DNA of 33,572 nt from Thermodesulfobacteriota bacterium (GTDB taxonomy: Bacteria > Desulfobacterota > WTBG01 > CAIYCZ01 > CAIRTM01): assembly GCA_028282925.1 (NCBI GenBank), contig JANQGV010000221.1, positions 1 through 33,572 on the forward strand. Reading direction: 5' to 3'. The notes under the pieces are model-generated. The model ran no database searches, was not told the DNA's origin, and was given only the letters and a program-made list of their open reading frames with translations. The translations under genes and the position numbers were made by a program. This document shows positions 2,694 to 32,565 of this stretch, piece after piece. Numbering within the stretch: the stretch's first letter is position 1; every line of letters begins with the position of its first letter.

Positions 2694-3674
2694 TTACGGT
2701 TCGATGATTGAAAGGGCGACATCAGCCATTTCATCACCTAGAAATTTATTGAGAGACCCGACGCCGGGGTCGTTTTCCTTGTACACGGCCCTGATCTGTT
2801 TACGCCGTTCGTGGATCAATTTCATGGATTCCGATTCCCTTTTTTTCGGCCGGGCATCTTTATATATATTCAGCCAGGCTTGCAGGTAATCGGTGGCACA
2901 TTTGAAGATCAAGTCGACGTTTTTTGTGGTTTTTTCCACTGTGCCGGTAATGATGTACGGGGAGTGCAAAGCCCGTACCCAGTGAAACACACTGGGTTTC
3001 ATGCCCGGCACCGCTGAATAGGTGTGGTAGAGATCGTCCAGCGGCTCAAAGTAGTATTTCTGCAGGTGATCCTGGTTGCGGCCCACGTCGTCGCTGGGGA
3101 GCAGGTCGCAAATGAAAAAAATATGCTCGTCTGATTCATCCCAGTCCATAACATAGTAGGGTATATCATATTCGGCACCCGGTGTAAGAATCACTACATC
3201 GGCCACCATGGTCCCGTAAAAGTTCATGCGGGATAGGCCTATTTTTTCAAGTTTATCAGCCGCATATGCCCGGTAAAAACACGTCTGCCCTTCAAGATCG
3301 AATTCATTCAGGCTGCGAATGTCCGTACCGCAATGATCGAACACCTGCACCGGCTTCAGCTCCTGTAACATGTCGGTCAGATGCTGCAGGATGGGGGTAA
3401 ACTGCGGCGTTTCAGCCGCAACACTGCCCTGCTGTTGTGTAACAGGTGGCGAACCGTCTTTGACCGCTATCTTCACACCCGGTATAAAGATGGCGTTTAC
3501 CGGGCATTCACGTATGCAGGTTCCGCACTCAAGACATTTTTCAGGATCGGATATCCGGCAAATACCTTTTTGCAACTCCAGAATTTTCATGGGACAGGCA
3601 TCAACACAAACCCCGCAGCCGATGCAGATTTCACTGTCAACGGTAAAAGCTGTTGTACTGTTTTGCTTACTCAT
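2694..3674 (-). CDS. 2[4Fe-4S] ferredoxin fused to a bilin reductase-like domain
   Basis: A 326-residue protein with GGAGG nine bases before the ATG. Residues 8-66 form a bacterial 2[4Fe-4S] ferredoxin: C17-x2-C20-x2-C23-x3-C27-P and C47-x2-C50-x2-C53-x3-C57-P. A polar linker (about 67-105) joins it to a domain paralogous to 1910-2614: YAADKLEKI near 137, LTPGAEYDIPYYVMDWD (P165, P172, D177), CDLLP, a HSPYI segment and a terminal ENDPGVGSLNKFLGD. Of the four paralogues only this one keeps an Asp (D177) where PcyA has catalytic Asp105. Bilin reductases take electrons from separate ferredoxin, so a built-in ferredoxin supports the superfamily call and implies a self-contained low-potential reductase in the cytoplasm. 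A plain ferredoxin fused to an unrelated domain is the alternative. No signal peptide is present. Confidence 0.75.
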   Translation of the reverse strand: MSKQNSTTAFTVDSEICIGCGVCVDACPMKILELQKGICRISDPEKCLECGTCIRECPVNAIFIPGVKIAVKDGSPPVTQQQGSVAAETPQFTPILQHLTDMLQELKPVQVFDHCGTDIRSLNEFDLEGQTCFYRAYAADKLEKIGLSRMNFYGTMVADVVILTPGAEYDIPYYVMDWDESDEHIFFICDLLPSDDVGRNQDHLQKYYFEPLDDLYHTYSAVPGMKPSVFHWVRALHSPYIITGTVEKTTKNVDLIFKCATDYLQAWLNIYKDARPKKRESESMKLIHERRKQIRAVYKENDPGVGSLNKFLGDEMADVALSIIEP

Positions 3675-3740: not shown

Positions 3741-4532
3741 TTACCAGCACCAGTCCATGCCGCCGTCGACGCTCAGGTTTTGGGCGGTGATATAGGAGGC
3801 CGCATCGGATGCCAAAAAAGCCACCGCCGCGGCGATTTCTTCGGCCGTGCCGGCACGCGGTATTAAAAGCTGCCCGTTCTTGACCGATTCCTCCACCAGC
3901 CAGTCGGCGAAGGTCCCGCGTTCCATCATCATTTCATCCTCTACCCGGTTATAGATATCGGTTGCAACAACCCCCGGCGAGACACAGTTGACCCGGATAC
4001 CCATGGGTGCCAGGCTTTTGGCCAGTGTTTTAGTAAACATGATGACCGCTGCCTTTGATGGTGCATATGCACCGGACATACCTTTGCCGCTGCGCGCCAT
4101 CAGGGTAGCCACCGTCACAATCGATCCGTGGGTGCCGCAGTCGACCATGTTTTGGCCGCATGCCCGGCAAAAGGCGAAAGAACCCCGCGCATTGACCGCG
4201 AACACCCGGTCCCACTCCTCCATGCCCAGTTCGAGTGCCGAAGATGCCGATTCGCTGATCGCGGCGTTTGAAACCGCAACGTCTACCGGACCAAAAGCAT
4301 CAGTTGCCTGCTGTATAAGACATGCAATGTCCTTATCCTGCGAAACGTCGGTCTGGATATACAGGGCGGTCCCGCCCTTTTCTTTAATTTCACCGGCAAC
4401 GCGCTCTCCGTTCTCGCGGTTGCGGTTGGCGATGACAACGCGGCCGCCTTCGTCGGCCAGTAAATGTGCAATGCCGCGTCCGATGCCGGTTCCGGCCCCG
4501 GTTATGATTATGTGTTTGTCTTTGAATCTCAT
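3741..4532 (-). CDS. Short-chain dehydrogenase/reductase (SDR), classical type
   Basis: A 263-residue NAD(P)-dependent oxidoreductase. The start at 4532 is chosen because GGAGG lies four bases upstream; an ATG at 4565 in frame adds 11 unlikely residues. The Rossmann motif is TGAGTGIGRG near residue 8, the NAA-type motif is SNAAIS, and the active site Tyr and Lys are in YAPSK. The catalytic Ser that normally sits 13 residues before the Tyr is a Thr (VTVATL), a less common but workable substitution. The C-terminus ends DGGMDWCW, like the DGG closing segment of FabG-type enzymes. Its substrate is not evident. It is the first gene of the putative operon and is preceded by a copy of the MarR operator, so it is probably expressed when the MarR ligand, perhaps the pathway substrate, is present. 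Confidence 0.85.
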   Translation of the reverse strand: MRFKDKHIIITGAGTGIGRGIAHLLADEGGRVVIANRNRENGERVAGEIKEKGGTALYIQTDVSQDKDIACLIQQATDAFGPVDVAVSNAAISESASSALELGMEEWDRVFAVNARGSFAFCRACGQNMVDCGTHGSIVTVATLMARSGKGMSGAYAPSKAAVIMFTKTLAKSLAPMGIRVNCVSPGVVATDIYNRVEDEMMMERGTFADWLVEESVKNGQLLIPRAGTAEEIAAAVAFLASDAASYITAQNLSVDGGMDWCW

Positions 4533-4574: not shown

Positions 4575-4594
4575 ATAATTGACATATCAATTAT
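4575..4594 (-). promoter_or_regulatory. MarR operator upstream of the SDR operon
   Basis: The site reads ATAATTGA-CATA-TCAATTAT: two perfect 8-base arms around a four-base centre. The core TAATTGA-N4-TCAATTA is identical to that at 5070-5091. On the minus strand a TATAAT box (4590-4595) abuts and overlaps the site, although no good -35 box is visible, so a bound dimer would cover the -10 and start region. This places the SDR and following genes under the MarR encoded just upstream (inference). Confidence 0.7.
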
Positions 4595-4606
4595 ATTAGT
4601 AAAAAA

Positions 4607-5050
4607 TTATTGTATAAGATTATTGTAAAGCTTTCTCAATACCGTTTTGCAGCTATCGATTTCTTCACTGCTCAGCCCCTCTACGGCCTTTTGCATATTG
4701 AGCAATCCCAGGGGTATCAACTGCTCTTCCAGCGCTTTTCCTTTGGGCGTCAGGTACACCTGTTTTTGACGGGAATCGTCTTTGTCCTTGATGCGGACCA
4801 CCAGGTTGCGCTTTTCAAGACCGTCGATAAGGCGCGTAATAGCGGCCCTGTCTTTTCCGATAACCTCGGCGATCTGATAGGGAAACCGGCCGTCTTCCTG
4901 CCACAATAGAAGTAAAATCATCCACTGCTCGGATGTAACATCAAAGCCTTCGCCGGTAAAAAGCCACTGGAGCCGTGTAGAAAGAGCACGGGTTGTTTTA
5001 TTGAGCAGGAATGCCAGGGAGTCCTCAGGTTTAAAATTTTTCACATCCAT
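4607..5050 (-). CDS. MarR family transcriptional regulator of the bilin-reductase-like cluster
   Basis: A 147-residue winged-helix regulator. The N-terminal helix (LAFLLNKTTRALSTRLQWLF) is the dimer and ligand region; the DNA-binding part runs from TSEQWMILLLLWQEDG through IAEVIGKDRAAITRLIDGLEKRNLVVR (recognition helix) to the wing with DDSRQKQVYLTPKG. MarR proteins bind short palindromes as dimers and usually let go when an aromatic or other small ligand binds. Two shared palindromes flank the gene, one over its own promoter and one between it and the SDR, which points to autorepression and repression of the operon. There is no ribosome site before the ATG; the predicted transcription start lies almost at the start codon, so the message may be leaderless. 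Confidence 0.9.
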   Translation of the reverse strand: MDVKNFKPEDSLAFLLNKTTRALSTRLQWLFTGEGFDVTSEQWMILLLLWQEDGRFPYQIAEVIGKDRAAITRLIDGLEKRNLVVRIKDKDDSRQKQVYLTPKGKALEEQLIPLGLLNMQKAVEGLSSEEIDSCKTVLRKLYNNLIQ

Positions 5051-5057
5051 AGTTTAT

Positions 5058-5086
5058 TTAATAGCACAAAGTAATTGACTAGTCAA
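5058..5086 (-). promoter_or_regulatory. Promoter of the MarR gene
   Basis: On the minus strand TTGACT (5081-5086) is followed after 17 bases by TATTAA (5058-5063). The -35 box is part of the palindrome at 5070-5091. The expected start of transcription is around 5051, one base before the ATG at 5050, which would give a leaderless mRNA and would explain the missing ribosome site. Confidence 0.55.
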
Positions 5087-5091
5087 TTACT
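5070..5091. promoter_or_regulatory. MarR operator over its own promoter (22-bp perfect palindrome)
   Basis: A perfect 22-bp palindrome with half-site AGTAATTGACT. Its core TAATTGA-N4-TCAATTA matches the site at 4575-4594, differing only in the four central bases. It covers the -35 box and part of the spacer of the MarR promoter. Confidence 0.75.
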
Positions 5092-5189
5092 TTTATGGCC
5101 ATACAGAGATCTCCTTGTGTCCTGGCAATGGCTCATTCTTATATCCGGTTATCCAGGAAAACGTATGTATTTTCGAAATTTTTTACGTT

Positions 5190-10504: not shown

Positions 10505-11878
10505 TTACGGTGTTTCAACAGCAAGAATATTTTTGTACGCCTTTATCGCCTTCAAAACTTCCGGCGTCTCGTTGATGCCTTCCAGAATCAGCTTACACGA
10601 CTGGGTTGCTCCGCTGATGGCATCAATATCTTTCCTGAACCTGACCGGCTGTTTCCGTGAAGCCTGTTTGATCACGCGCTGGAGATAGTCCTGTGCTTCA
10701 ATGGGCATGCCGTACAGATCGATTGACTCTATCAGGACGATGTTTTTGACTGTACCTTTCATATCGAATGAATAGACATAATGCACGTTGGTGCACACAT
10801 CGCACAGCACATCTTTAAAAACCCGGCGCGCCAGAATTTTCTTCTTATCCTGCGTGGTGCCGATGTACACCTCATTGTCAACGCTGAGGGTTACTTTGTC
10901 GATGCGCTCGGCTTCGGGTATAAGCCTGCGCAGGTATGTTCTGACAATCTCCTCGGGCAACTCCTCCTTGAAGTAGCTTTTTACTTTTACAAGGATGGAC
11001 TCCAGGTTGGTAAGAGAAATACGCTCGATGATAAACCGTATCTTGCCCTTTTTATTAATAATAAAGGTACGCGACAACGTTTTCACCCCGTACTTCTCGG
11101 CTACGGAACCGTCTTTATCAACGAGGATGGGAAAATCCACATAGTATTTCTTCTTGAAAGCGTTTACGGCCCTGGCCGAATCATTAACGGCGATCCGCAC
11201 CATTTCAAGGTCCTCACGCTTATAGCGCCGGTACACGGTTTTCATGATTTCGACAACCTGGCGGGTTGTCTCGTCCTGAACCGACATAAAGGTCAGCATA
11301 ATGGTTTTTTTGCCGATGCTGTCCTGCAACGAAAACGTTTTCCCTTCCGATGTTTTCAGGGTGAAGTCCGGGGGCTTGTTCCAGAGATCGGAGCCAACCA
11401 CCTCTTTTTCATCAACAATCTCCTGCATGATGGCTGCGAACCGCTTCTCGCCGGGCAGCTTTCCACGGTAACGGATGGTCCCGGAACGGTCGATGATGTC
11501 GATGAGCGGAATGGTGGAAACAAAATATTTCCGAAACACCTCCTTCTTCGGGTCGGGAACAAGGGTGAATTCGGCTTTGAAACTCTTTTTAAAATCACGG
11601 GTCTCCTGATTGTCATTTGCCGTTGCGATACCCAGAACTACCACATCGGGGTACTGCTTCTGCAGCATGTTTATCTGGGGCACTTCTTCCCGGCAACTGT
11701 GACAGTAGGTATTGAAATGAAACAGCAATACAATCTTGCCCGCATAGTCCGACAGGGAGTGCACCTTGCCGTCAAGGTCTTTTAACGTGAAATCCGGCGC
11801 ACCCACCCCCAGCATATCCGCACCCGCGGACCCGGTCATGAGCACACTAAAAAGCAGCATAACACACAGTTTTTTCAT
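10505..11878 (-). CDS. Periplasmic double-thioredoxin (TlpA/AhpC-like) protein with C-terminal FMN-binding domain
   Basis: A 457-residue exported protein. Residues 1-20 are a signal peptide. Residues 24-155 form a TlpA/AhpC-TSA thioredoxin fold (GAPDFTLKDLDGKVHSLSDY) with the redox pair in YCHSC. Residues 168-305 form a second such fold (PPDFTLKTSEGKTFSLQDS) in which the active site reads SVQDETT and has no cysteine. Residues 340-445 resemble the FMN-binding domain of NqrC and RnfG: a CDVC pair, then DAISGATQSCK, the S-G-A-T motif whose Thr carries a covalently bound FMN in those proteins. The combination suggests electron flow between a flavin and a disulfide on the outside of the inner membrane. 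Start at ATG 11878. The leader has a terminator-like hairpin about 110 bp upstream. Confidence 0.8.
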   Translation of the reverse strand: MKKLCVMLLFSVLMTGSAGADMLGVGAPDFTLKDLDGKVHSLSDYAGKIVLLFHFNTYCHSCREEVPQINMLQKQYPDVVVLGIATANDNQETRDFKKSFKAEFTLVPDPKKEVFRKYFVSTIPLIDIIDRSGTIRYRGKLPGEKRFAAIMQEIVDEKEVVGSDLWNKPPDFTLKTSEGKTFSLQDSIGKKTIMLTFMSVQDETTRQVVEIMKTVYRRYKREDLEMVRIAVNDSARAVNAFKKKYYVDFPILVDKDGSVAEKYGVKTLSRTFIINKKGKIRFIIERISLTNLESILVKVKSYFKEELPEEIVRTYLRRLIPEAERIDKVTLSVDNEVYIGTTQDKKKILARRVFKDVLCDVCTNVHYVYSFDMKGTVKNIVLIESIDLYGMPIEAQDYLQRVIKQASRKQPVRFRKDIDAISGATQSCKLILEGINETPEVLKAIKAYKNILAVETP

Positions 11879-17329: not shown

Positions 17330-18025
17330 CTACAAGCCGAAGTGCATATCCATAGACCGCTCCACCCCCCCCTTGGCTCCGAAAAGCACTTTCCAGATAC
17401 CCACTCCCGGGTCGTGATCGATAAGGGTTTTCAGGTAGTCGTCGAACACTTGGCGGGTCCGCTGCAATTCATCACCGGATACCGGCTCGGCCTGCTGTAC
17501 CAGATCACAAAACAGGTGCAGGTATTCAAGGAAAATACCCACCGCGCGGTCGTCGAGCTCTTCCGGGATCTGCACCTGACAGGCCGCCGGTGAAAAAACG
17601 TCCTGGACCTGCCCCTTCTGCTTTTTGGTGTAGTGGGTCAGGTCTGGATAGCGGTCGCGTATGGCAATCATGCGCTCGAACAGTTCCGAATCGTCGTGGT
17701 GGGTTTTGCCGGTACGATGGATATCAACAATAAGCATCTTTTTGTTGCCGGTCCTCATCACTTCTCCGGCAAAAACCGGCAAGTCCAGTTCTACCCGTGG
17801 CCGGATGAACATGGAACGTACGGCAAAATAACAGGGCAGTTCAGGTCGGATAAAAACGATCCGCAAAAGCTTATCCGTACTGAACACCTCCCCATCGATT
17901 TTCATCAGCCCCAGAGCCCGCAACGGCCGTTCCGGAAAAGGGTGCTTCAGTTGTACAGAATCAAGGGAAAAACGCTTGTGCAGTTCCCCTTGAACAATGG
18001 CATGAATCTCCATCAACCGAGACAT
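17330..18025 (-). CDS. Divergent bilin reductase-like protein, fourth paralogue
   Basis: A 231-residue soluble protein. The ATG at 18025 follows AGGAGGGG; an upstream in-frame start at 18091 has no such site. It shares the family pattern of the cluster at 449-3674: FSTDKLLRI near residue 48, MFIRPRVELDLPVFAGE (P76, P83, E88), a following IVDIH segment, and the C-terminal DHDPGVGIWKVLFGA. The residue at the PcyA Asp105 position is Glu88, acidic like the fused paralogue but one carbon longer. Similarity to PcyA itself is too weak to call alone; the assignment rests on the paralogues. It is divergent from the cupin and split beta-barrel pair at 18256-19213, and convergent with repeat copy D. Confidence 0.6.
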   Translation of the reverse strand: MSRLMEIHAIVQGELHKRFSLDSVQLKHPFPERPLRALGLMKIDGEVFSTDKLLRIVFIRPELPCYFAVRSMFIRPRVELDLPVFAGEVMRTGNKKMLIVDIHRTGKTHHDDSELFERMIAIRDRYPDLTHYTKKQKGQVQDVFSPAACQVQIPEELDDRAVGIFLEYLHLFCDLVQQAEPVSGDELQRTRQVFDDYLKTLIDHDPGVGIWKVLFGAKGGVERSMDMHFGL

Positions 18026-18080
18026 AATACGTTCCCCTCCTGAAAGATGTGTATGTGAACATTGTATTGGTTGTCTGTCT

Positions 18081-18110
18081 ATTATGTACATAGAATCGCC
18101 GACTTCTCAA
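18081..18110 (-). promoter_or_regulatory. Possible promoter of the fourth bilin-reductase-like gene
   Basis: On the minus strand TTGAGA (18105-18110) is followed after 16 bases by TACATA or after 18 by CATAAT. The palindrome TATGTACATA (18083-18092) overlaps the -10 region and may be a regulator site. Confidence 0.35.
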
Positions 18111-29234: not shown

Positions 29235-30845
29235 ATGACCGCTCTTCAAAAACAAACCTACTGTATTATTTGCTCGTTATTCCTTCTGTGCATAGTTACG
29301 CACTGCTGGGCCGGGGAAGAACAGGAAAAAAATGACTTCCCTCAGATTGTCGACAACACCGTACAGGTTCCCCTGCAGAGCGTATTGTGCCTTGCGTTGA
29401 AAAACAATCTTGATATAACCTTTGCCGGACTGCAGCCGCAAATTGCAGCAACAGATGTTACCCGTGAAAAGTCGGCCTACGACACCCTTTTCACCACACA
29501 GCTCCAGAAATACCGCGAAAGAATGCAGGTCGGCAACGCCCTTACCGGTAGTGGCTCCAGCGCTGAAATTTATCAGGAACAGTTCGATTTCGAAGCCAAA
29601 CTGCAGAAAAAATTCACCGCCGGCACCCTGGCCGAACTCAAACTTTCACATTCGGAAAACCAGAACGACCTGCCCTTCTCCGGCCTTGTCCCCGAGTATA
29701 CCGGCGAGTTGCTGTTTTCCATCACCCAGCCGCTGCTGCGTGATTTCGGAATTGAAATCGGGCGCAGCCTTATTAAAATAGCCAACCTGAACCACATGGT
29801 GTCCCGGCAGGAATTCAAAAGAAACGTTATGGATATCCTGTTTCAGGTTGAATCGTATTACTGGGACCTGTTCTTCAGAATTGACGATTTGAAGAGTAAA
29901 GACAAATCCCTGAAACGCGCCGAAGACCTGTTGCGCGAGTTCAAAATCAGAATCGAAGCCGGGACCCTGGCGCCCATCGATATCTACCAGGCCGAAGCGG
30001 AAGTGGCCCTGCGCAGGCAGGAGGTGATTGTGGCCGAATCAATGGTCAAATCCGCGGAAGACAACCTGAAGGCAGCCCTCAACCTGTACGACGACGAGAA
30101 ATACTGGAACATTATTATCCTGCCCCAGGACAGCCCCGTGTCTGAGAAGTTGATCCCCGATTTAAACGAAAACATTCAAACCGCCCTTGAAAAGCGCCCC
30201 GATTTTCAACAGGCAAAGCTGAATCTCAAGGCATCCAATATTCAGGTGAAGTATTCCAAAAACCAGACCCTGCCGCGCATCGACCTGATCGGGTCCATCG
30301 GTACAACCGGTCTTGCCGGCCGCCCCAATGATACCAGCGGCGCGTTCGGCGCGTTTTTCCGGGCCGATCCCAGCCCATGGGACGGACACTGGGACGATGT
30401 ATACGATGGAATGGGTGATGATGATTATTATAATTATGTCATCGGTATTAAAATTGAAATCCCGCTGGAAAACCGTCTGGCAAAGAGCCAGTATTCCCGC
30501 GCTAAGGTCCAGGCCGCCCAGGCTATTACGAGCCTGAAAAACAGAGAGAACATCATCATCAACGAAGTACGCGATGCCGTCCGCCAGGTGATGACCACTC
30601 AGAAAGTAATCGAAGCCGCCAACGCCGCCTTAAAAATGTCCACCGAAAAGCTGAAAGCCGAAGAGAAAAAATACAAGGTGGGTATGTCCACAACCCACGA
30701 TGTGCTGGAATTTCAGGAGGAGTTGGCAAAAGCGGAAAGCTCCCTGGCATCGGCCCAGTCGCAATACGGCAAAGCTGTTGCAAACCTTTCACGGGCCCGC
30801 GGTACCCTGATTGAGGACAAGGGATTGGAAGTACAGAAAAACTAG
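29235..30845 (+). CDS. TolC-family outer-membrane efflux protein
   Basis: A 536-residue exported protein with GAGGA before the ATG. Residues 1-26 are a signal peptide. Two repeats of the TolC fold follow: helices such as VLCLALKNNLDITFAGLQPQ and IYQAEAEVALRRQEVIVAES, and beta segments TGELLFSITQPLLRDFG and YYNYVIGIKIEIPLENR. These trimerise into an outer-membrane and periplasmic tunnel. A loop rich in Asp, Tyr and Trp (WDGHWDDVYDGMGDDDYY) near residue 385 is larger than usual and may face outside the cell. It opens the efflux operon. Confidence 0.92.
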   Translation: MTALQKQTYCIICSLFLLCIVTHCWAGEEQEKNDFPQIVDNTVQVPLQSVLCLALKNNLDITFAGLQPQIAATDVTREKSAYDTLFTTQLQKYRERMQVGNALTGSGSSAEIYQEQFDFEAKLQKKFTAGTLAELKLSHSENQNDLPFSGLVPEYTGELLFSITQPLLRDFGIEIGRSLIKIANLNHMVSRQEFKRNVMDILFQVESYYWDLFFRIDDLKSKDKSLKRAEDLLREFKIRIEAGTLAPIDIYQAEAEVALRRQEVIVAESMVKSAEDNLKAALNLYDDEKYWNIIILPQDSPVSEKLIPDLNENIQTALEKRPDFQQAKLNLKASNIQVKYSKNQTLPRIDLIGSIGTTGLAGRPNDTSGAFGAFFRADPSPWDGHWDDVYDGMGDDDYYNYVIGIKIEIPLENRLAKSQYSRAKVQAAQAITSLKNRENIIINEVRDAVRQVMTTQKVIEAANAALKMSTEKLKAEEKKYKVGMSTTHDVLEFQEELAKAESSLASAQSQYGKAVANLSRARGTLIEDKGLEVQKN

Positions 30846-30991
30846 GGGGGATAACGTGCATCCTGTTGAAACACTATTATTTGTAAAGGGAGACCACTGG
30901 AAAAGATTCAGAACCGCCGCAACCCGGCAGATGAGCATTTTTCGACTGTCTTCCGGATTCAAAATGGGAGAGGAGCAACAAAGTAAGAATT

Positions 30992-31447
30992 ATGGTTTCA
31001 TTCAAAAACGTAAACGATCTCATAGGCATTATTCATCGCTGCATGCGACGCTTCTTCGAGTCGCAGATGAAAAAATATGATATCACTCCGCCCCAGTTCG
31101 AAGTACTGGTAACGCTCTGGAACGAAGACGGGCTGGTACTGAGCGAGTTGGGACGGCGGCTTTCCCGCGACGGCCCCACCATCACGGGTATCATTGACCG
31201 CATGGAAAAGAAAAAACTGGTCACCCGCAAGCGCAGTATGCGCGACCGCCGGGTAATCCAGGTCTACCTGACGTCCAAAGCCTGGGAGGTCAAGGAAAAC
31301 CTGATGAAGATGCAGCAGGAAGCCGGCAAGGACATAACGGTAAACTTTTCCGAACATGATATCCAGACCCTGGAAGACTTGCTCTATAAAATTCTGTCTA
31401 ATATTGAGGAAAATATTTTACCCAAAATCCAACAATCCGAAGATTAA
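30992..31447 (+). CDS. MarR family regulator of the efflux operon
   Basis: A 151-residue winged-helix protein. The DNA-binding part runs through TPPQFEVLVTLWNEDGLVLS, LGRRLSRDGPTITGIIDRME (recognition helix) and the wing KRSMRDRRVIQVYLT. It sits inside the operon, 146 bp after TolC and five bases before the adaptor gene, so adaptor translation may be coupled to it. It probably represses the operon through the 29191-29213 site and responds to an exported compound. Only a distant GGAG precedes its ATG. Confidence 0.9.
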   Translation: MVSFKNVNDLIGIIHRCMRRFFESQMKKYDITPPQFEVLVTLWNEDGLVLSELGRRLSRDGPTITGIIDRMEKKKLVTRKRSMRDRRVIQVYLTSKAWEVKENLMKMQQEAGKDITVNFSEHDIQTLEDLLYKILSNIEENILPKIQQSED

Positions 31448-31452
31448 TACCG

Positions 31453-32565
31453 ATGATCACAGGGCACCTGCGTGTTCGATACACCTTCTTGATGATTCTG
31501 TGCGGCTTGGCCTGCCTGTTCGGATGCAACGGGCAACCCGAAATGCAAACGGACCAGGCCGCTGAAAAAAGTTTTCCCGTTGAAGTGACGCTCCCCGTCT
31601 TGCAGGATGTCGCCCACACTCTGGAAGCCGTCGGCAGCTTCCTGCCGGAAGAGGAAGTGACGGTGGGAGCAGAGGTTGCCGGAACGATTAAGGAGCTCCA
31701 CACCGATGAGGGCACCCTGGTCACACGCGGGCAGCCCCTCCTTTCAATCGACGATGAAAAAGTCCGCCTTGAAGTCCAGGAAACCGAGGCTATGCTGCGC
31801 GAGGCCCGCGCCCGGCTGAAAAACGCTGAAAACACCCTCAATCGCATGACAAAACTGTTCAGGGACAAAGTCATCGGCCGGCACGACTTCGACGATGCCG
31901 AAACCGAAGTCTCCCTCAACAAAGCCATGGTCGAAGAACTGCAGGCCCGCCTCAATCGCGCTAAAAAATCGTTGCGCGATGCCCGCGTACGCGCCCCTAT
32001 CGACGGCACCATCAGCGAGCGCCTTGTTTCGCCCGGAGAGTATGTAAAAGTCGGGGCACAGTTGATGCGTATTGTGGATGCCGACCCCTTGAAACTTGTC
32101 TTCAGCCTTCCGGAGCAGCATGTCGGCGAAGCGCGGAAAGGACAAAAAGTTTCGATCACAACCCGGGCCTATCCCGGCAAATCCTTTGAGGGGTCTGTCT
32201 ATTTCATCAACCCGAAAATCGACCAGGACACCCGTACCATTGAAATCAAGGCTTGGGTCGATAACAGCGACCACCAGCTCAAACCGGGGTTTTACGTTAA
32301 CGTTACCGTCTATCTGGGCAGTAAAAAATCACTGGTGCTTCCTGAAAGCGCCGTCGTTGTACGAGAAGGCATCATCATGTGCATGGCGGTTGAAAACGAT
32401 CGCATTGTATACAAAAAGGTTGTTCCCGGAGTTCGATTCAACGGCATGGTGGAAGTCTTGGACGGAATCACTTCGACTGACAGGATTGTTGTATATGGCC
32501 GTAGCGAAATCAGCGAAGGAACGCTGGTAACGGTTACTTCTGAAAAAAAATCCCCTGGAACTTGA
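31453..32565 (+). CDS. RND efflux adaptor lipoprotein (HlyD/MFP family)
   Basis: A 370-residue periplasmic adaptor. The N-terminal signal ends in the lipobox LFGC (Cys near residue 25), so it is anchored to a membrane by lipid. Residues 45-80 and 180-215 form the lipoyl half-motifs (VGAEVAGTIKELHTDEGTLV and RAPIDGTISERLVSPGEYV), separated by a coiled-coil hairpin (about 95-175) rich in ARLKNAENTLNR and EELQARLNRAKK. Beta-barrel and membrane-proximal domains follow (ADPLKLVFSLPEQHVGE, then SALVVREG-like VLPESAVVVREG). It would link the RND pump to TolC. A palindromic repeat separates it from the RND gene. Confidence 0.92.
   Translation: MITGHLRVRYTFLMILCGLACLFGCNGQPEMQTDQAAEKSFPVEVTLPVLQDVAHTLEAVGSFLPEEEVTVGAEVAGTIKELHTDEGTLVTRGQPLLSIDDEKVRLEVQETEAMLREARARLKNAENTLNRMTKLFRDKVIGRHDFDDAETEVSLNKAMVEELQARLNRAKKSLRDARVRAPIDGTISERLVSPGEYVKVGAQLMRIVDADPLKLVFSLPEQHVGEARKGQKVSITTRAYPGKSFEGSVYFINPKIDQDTRTIEIKAWVDNSDHQLKPGFYVNVTVYLGSKKSLVLPESAVVVREGIIMCMAVENDRIVYKKVVPGVRFNGMVEVLDGITSTDRIVVYGRSEISEGTLVTVTSEKKSPGT

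Follow-up and report, generated by a model that had tools for sequence, protein, structure and literature searches.

Paired candidate MarR operators and an associated bilin-reductase-fold gene set in an order of Desulfobacterota

Introduction

Does a MarR-family regulator of an uncultured anaerobe control, through a matched pair of palindromes, both its own gene and a neighboring operon for proteins of the bilin reductase fold? Autoregulation via a palindrome over the regulator's own promoter, together with control of an adjacent enzyme operon, is the usual MarR scheme. The window, by which we mean the whole stretch of DNA analyzed (33,572 nucleotides of Thermodesulfobacteriota bacterium contig JANQGV010000221.1, assembly GCA_028282925.1), presents a marR gene with one candidate operator upstream (O1) and another (O2) between marR and an SDR oxidoreductase gene. 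The original prediction, made from the sequence alone, was that identical TAATTGA-N4-TCAATTA cores lie at both positions and link the MarR to the bilin-reductase-like operon.

Results

Both predicted cores are exact, with 0 mismatches. The O1 core, TAATTGACTAGTCAATTA, at positions 5072 to 5089, lies within a perfect palindrome of 26 bp (5068 to 5093) rather than the 22 bp first proposed, 21 bases before the marR start codon. The O2 core, TAATTGACATATCAATTA, at 4576 to 4593, is part of a site at 4575 to 4594 that has 8-bp arms and a non-palindromic spacer; neither operator is assigned to a strand, and their centers are 496 bp apart. The predicted overlap of O2 with a TATAAT sequence is also borne out: read from the sequence, this likely -10 box of the SDR promoter lies on the minus strand at 4595 to 4590, and the SDR start codon follows 43 bases further on, at 4532. 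A promoter scan does not list this box, as the predicted SDR promoter has a perfect -10 and no good -35 upstream.

Under a second-order Markov model of the window, 3.4e-5 exact matches are expected in the window and 0.006 in the 5.62-Mb assembly. The genome-wide search proposed with the original prediction, run with at most one mismatch, returned two places, O1 and O2, both at the window marR, rather than many unrelated occurrences, and a reversed control pattern at the same threshold returned 0 places in the assembly; this assembly (G000) consists of 324 contigs and is 96% complete, and a further operator could be missing from the scan. A reading of O1 and O2 as chance similarity or a dispersed repeat could draw on the result with three mismatches allowed in the window, where 2 matches were found and 1.67 are expected, but this comparison is uninformative by itself, as both matches have 0 mismatches. 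The uniqueness of the pair in the genome and its conservation in the clade, described below, refute that reading, to which we attach practically no weight.

O2 lies 13 bases after the marR stop codon and 8 bp of it could pair as RNA, and it could therefore be read as a structure that closes marR, either a terminator or an RNA hairpin. Such a hairpin would be weak (-4.3 kcal/mol, z -1.17), it lacks a G+C-rich stem and is not called as a terminator, and the O2 sequence is common to O1, which precedes the gene; a structure of this kind in place of a protein site is thus highly improbable.

Behind O1, the minus strand carries in order marR, SDR, Fd-FDBR, FDBR2, an ATC-hydrolase-like gene, and FDBR1. 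The regulator (4607 to 5050) has 147 amino acids and matches PF01047 at 49.8 bits against a cut-off of 24.6, and SDR (3741 to 4532; PF13561, 201.7 bits) is the first gene behind O2. It is followed by Fd-FDBR (2694 to 3674), a fusion of a ferredoxin domain and the bilin reductase fold (PF00037 and PF05996, the latter at 52.6 bits against a cut-off of 31), and by FDBR2 (1910 to 2614), a bilin-reductase-fold protein that meets the same cut-off marginally, at 31.4 bits, and whose orthologue in locus L040 scores 47.6 bits. The ATC-hydrolase-like protein (1410 to 1889) matches PF14196 at 53.2 bits against 28.1, and FDBR1 (449 to 1240), the third bilin-reductase-fold protein, matches PF05996 at 35.5 bits. 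On the basis of order and strand, FDBR1 may belong to the operon. Judged by eye in the translation, its N terminus is signal peptide-like, so that it may be exported, which would be odd for a ferredoxin-dependent enzyme. Elsewhere in the window, a fourth PF05996 copy is found at 17330 to 18091, the protein encoded at 10505 to 11878 combines two AhpC/TSA-redoxin stretches with an FMN-binding domain, and a second MarR gene (30992 to 31447) lies between OEP efflux and HlyD-type membrane fusion genes in a typical efflux operon (29235 to 32565).

The operon proteins align only remotely with bilin reductases, whose equivalog models score far under their cut-offs. The best Foldseek match of Fd-FDBR is 6kme (E 1.1e-8), obtained with a low-confidence model (pLDDT 50), and on that model the fold appears to resemble those of bilin and red chlorophyll catabolite reductases. 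PF05996 is abundant in the family, with 14, 17, 7, 14, 0, 14, 10, 8, and 9 matches in genomes G000 to G008, respectively (7 to 17 in eight of the nine). In a sample of 198 genomes of the phylum it occurs in seven, five of them from this family, one from the same order, and one with a weak match under the cut-off; the weak match aside, no genome of the sample from another order has the fold.

The window MarR shares the winged-helix MarR domain of the NCBIfam families HpaR, SlyA, OhrR, and BilQ and reaches none of the NCBIfam equivalog cut-offs (HpaR, 42.2 of 121.2 bits; OhrR, 44.1 of 200; SlyA, 40 of 120; BilQ, 31 of 125). A BilQ-like identity is rejected by this last score.

Relatives of the window MarR were sought in 39 genomes, and 15 clade members were examined with their surroundings, a total that excludes the contig-edge fragment G001:C57, which has 2 mismatches to the motif. 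The degenerate motif TARTTG-N6-CAAYTA lies with 0 or 1 mismatch within 250 bp upstream of 13 of the 15 clade marR genes (8 exact), a figure that represents a fit rather than an independent test, as the motif was derived by visual inspection of the same upstream regions. Dinucleotide shuffles gave 0.085 on average and never more than 2; among control blocks of the same loci, 1 of 721 matched. Both genes without an upstream site, G006:C39 and G008:C61, fall in the subclade of the window MarR. In 7 of the 13 operator-bearing clade marR genes, a perfect TTGACA begins 27 to 31 bases before the operator, which consequently covers the -10/start region. The operator pair is usable as the regulon definition that the original prediction proposed, with the amendment that across the clade the consensus reads TARTTG-N6-CAAYTA, the TAATTG of the window being the variant of one small subclade.

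A further site with up to 2 mismatches lies downstream of marR in 6 of the 15 (shuffle mean, 0.66; 0 of 300 shuffles reached 6), and a second site is absent, at 3 or more mismatches, from the other 9. Such pairs, found also in G001, G003, G005, G007, and at the C58 paralogue of G000, together with the distance between O1 and O2, raise the possibility of joint action through a DNA loop. The start-to-start spacing varies, from 157 bp in L040 and 338 in L095 to 492 in L024 and 581 in L043 and L044, and the operator of relatives occupies the -10/start region, where one bound dimer suffices. Looping is accordingly a very unlikely account, and we treat O1 and O2 as two independent operators.

Exact TARTTG-N6-CAAYTA occurs at five places in G000, namely O1, O2, one upstream of each of the marR paralogues on C49 and C58, and one in C317, so that four of the five adjoin clade marR genes. 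With one mismatch allowed, 21 places are found (5 exact and 16 with one mismatch) versus 66 for the reversed control, and therefore only the exact degenerate form is informative genome-wide. Exact matches in C317 (G000), C168 (G003), and C56 (G005) lie inside long reading frames and look like chance.

Outside the window's class, which comprises 17 genomes, we considered 20 homologues from the phylum, one marR per genome (G205, G226, G288, and G396 had further matches). A site with 0 or 1 mismatch was present for 2 of the 20, exact in G143 and unconvincing in G205. The motif is hence a rule of the clade, and its use as a general MarR rule is rejected. In G143 (L139, 1442 to 2034), a distant MarR has exact TARTTG-N6-CAAYTA on both sides of its gene; among the query proteins, only the two window MarRs match at this locus.

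The enzyme genes of relatives extend the association beyond the regulator. A scan of GTDB genomes for Fd-FDBR gave 20 loci: six close full-length relatives with 56 to 70% identity (L039 to L044, from G008, G003, G006, G002, G001, and G007, respectively), more distant ones with 42 to 51% (L045 to L047), and 11 others that matched mainly the ferredoxin part. A site with 0 or 1 mismatch precedes the SDR/bilin-reductase-fold genes, or the marR at their head, in six of seven genomes (G000, G001, G003, G006, G007, and G008), which supports the predicted link between the MarR and the bilin-reductase-like operon. The seventh genome, G002, has these genes without a site before them; searched at E 1e-25, G002 yielded no clade MarR, and the exact motif is likewise absent from its genome.

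G006 and G008 carry the genes at two separate places, an Fd-FDBR locus, whose site has 0 mismatches in G006 and 1 in G008, and an SDR-FDBR2-FADox-FeS operon, whose site has 2 and 1, respectively. FADox, a FAD oxidase, and FeS, an Fe-S protein, show a distant likeness to GlcD and CCG-domain subunits, far under the equivalog cut-offs. G002 has FADox, FeS, SDR, Fd-FDBR, and FDBR2 consecutively, all in the same orientation. A FADox/FeS pair with 74 to 78% identity is present on C239 of G000, where the promoter of FADox is not visible because the contig begins inside this gene. As the same genes are adjacent in G002 and share operators in other genomes, they are joined either way. The operators thus mark FAD-oxidase/Fe-S genes as well, and this arrangement suggests that the SDR, bilin-reductase-fold, and FAD-oxidase/Fe-S genes form one pathway.

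Two loci of G003 show operators that have outlasted the local regulator, as far as these draft metagenome assemblies are correct. In L040, two operators before SDR-FdFDBR-FDBR2 enclose only a marR remnant, codons 1 to 28 with an internal stop, whose best match is the protein of G005 (E 1.3e-8). The pair of exact operators in L095 (G003:C61) surrounds marR codons 116 to 147, with the C20 copy of the same genome as best match (E 1.6e-10), and stands upstream of a FAD-binding oxidase gene. This remnant lies beside inserted-looking DNA (L095, 1941 to 2110), of which a copy with 72% identity occurs in L106, a locus in a different genome of the family; the DNA is perhaps a small mobile repeat. An intact marR on C20, 72% identical to that of the window and with a one-mismatch operator, precedes a FAD-oxidase/Fe-S pair. 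Palindromes would be expected to persist after decay of the adjacent regulator if they are still read by a copy elsewhere, and the G003 loci are strong evidence that these sites are read in trans by a distant copy.

Recognition helices differ within the clade. In the subclade formed by the window, G003:C20, and G005 proteins (support 94/91, just under the mark of the tool), one or both half-sites upstream of marR take the TAATTG form and the recognition helix contains GKDRAA, whereas most of the other operator-bearing clade members show KDKTT or something close to it. It can be hypothesized that the GKDRAA helix pairs with TAATTG half-sites; the two coincide in a single event on the tree, and the pairing is hence a hypothesis. 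The C49 and C58 MarR paralogues are 39 to 42% identical and sit beside TAGTTG-N6-CAACTA sites, which differ from O1 and O2 at only two symmetric core positions. Given such near-identical operators, and operator-bearing enzyme genes in G006 and G008 without an adjoining marR, O1 and O2 could be read mainly or jointly by another MarR, for example the C49 or C58 paralogue, within a cross-talking network. We consider this unlikely, though the most plausible of the alternatives, as the TAATTG form tracks one MarR subclade with its own helix sequence and O1 and O2 flank the gene of that subclade.

Discussion

Placed together, the two sites, their uniqueness, their conservation in the clade, the position over promoters in relatives, and the retention after local marR loss argue from sequence that O1 and O2 are very probably operators of the adjacent MarR, through which it would control its own gene and the SDR/bilin-reductase-like operon. 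The ligand-free MarR, presumably as a dimer, would bind the TAATTG-N6-CAATTA palindrome, repress its own gene from O1, and at O2 cover the -10/start region of a second promoter, which would drive SDR, Fd-FDBR, FDBR2, the ATC-hydrolase-like gene, and possibly the exported-looking FDBR1. The MarR may then be released by a small molecule, probably one that the pathway consumes or forms as an intermediate, so that regulator and enzymes rise together. This control logic is classical MarR autoregulation and is ordinary.

We found neither the TARTTG-N6-CAAYTA operator nor its targets in the open-access literature, and bilin reductases in combination with Desulfobacterota likewise gave nothing on this system there. 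The MarR regulator AesR of Corynebacterium glutamicum is described as having palindromic operators that overlap promoters, one of them containing TAGTTG (PMC13413800). Unlike in O1 and O2, the half-sites given there face the other way, as CGACTA-N7-TAGTTG, and the operators are neighbors within a single intergenic region (PMC13413800).

For the enzymes, the closest parallel may be the pre-PcyA clusters of heterotrophic bacteria, in which, as here, bilin-reductase-fold proteins occur in non-photosynthetic bacteria (PMC10151467). An iron-sulfur protein partner, reported for two of the three cluster types, recalls the Fe-S protein of the present gene set (PMC10151467). The clusters as described contain globins with V4R or B12-binding proteins and, in many cases, heme oxygenase (PMC10151467), whereas the present set combines SDR, an ATC-hydrolase-like protein, a FAD oxidase, and a CCG Fe-S protein; PF01126, the only heme oxygenase family searched, is found in none of the nine family genomes, compared with 3 of 14 control genomes.

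Eight of the 15 clade marR loci (G000:C49, G000:C58, L024, L028, L030, L033, L034, and L036) carry a gene for an aldehyde:ferredoxin oxidoreductase (AFOR), and an AFOR-associated MarR group was not found in the open-access literature. In view of these loci and of the PF01126 result, the tetrapyrrole ligand suggested with the original prediction is possible for the window MarR but unsupported. We tentatively propose, at somewhat under even confidence, that an order of uncultured anaerobes may have radiated bilin-reductase-fold enzymes without PF01126, and that the operator code may mark one set, together with SDR, FAD oxidase/Fe-S, and sometimes AFOR, as a pathway dedicated to some substrate that is not heme-derived biliverdin.

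The decayed marR loci with kept operators would constitute a natural example of a distant copy taking over control, and the GKDRAA helix with its TAATTG half-sites may represent a testable specificity switch. The operator pair offers a regulon definition by sequence for a set of bilin-reductase-fold genes and would tie a poorly understood group of enzymes into one regulated pathway, and the molecule that releases the window MarR would point to the substrate of that pathway.
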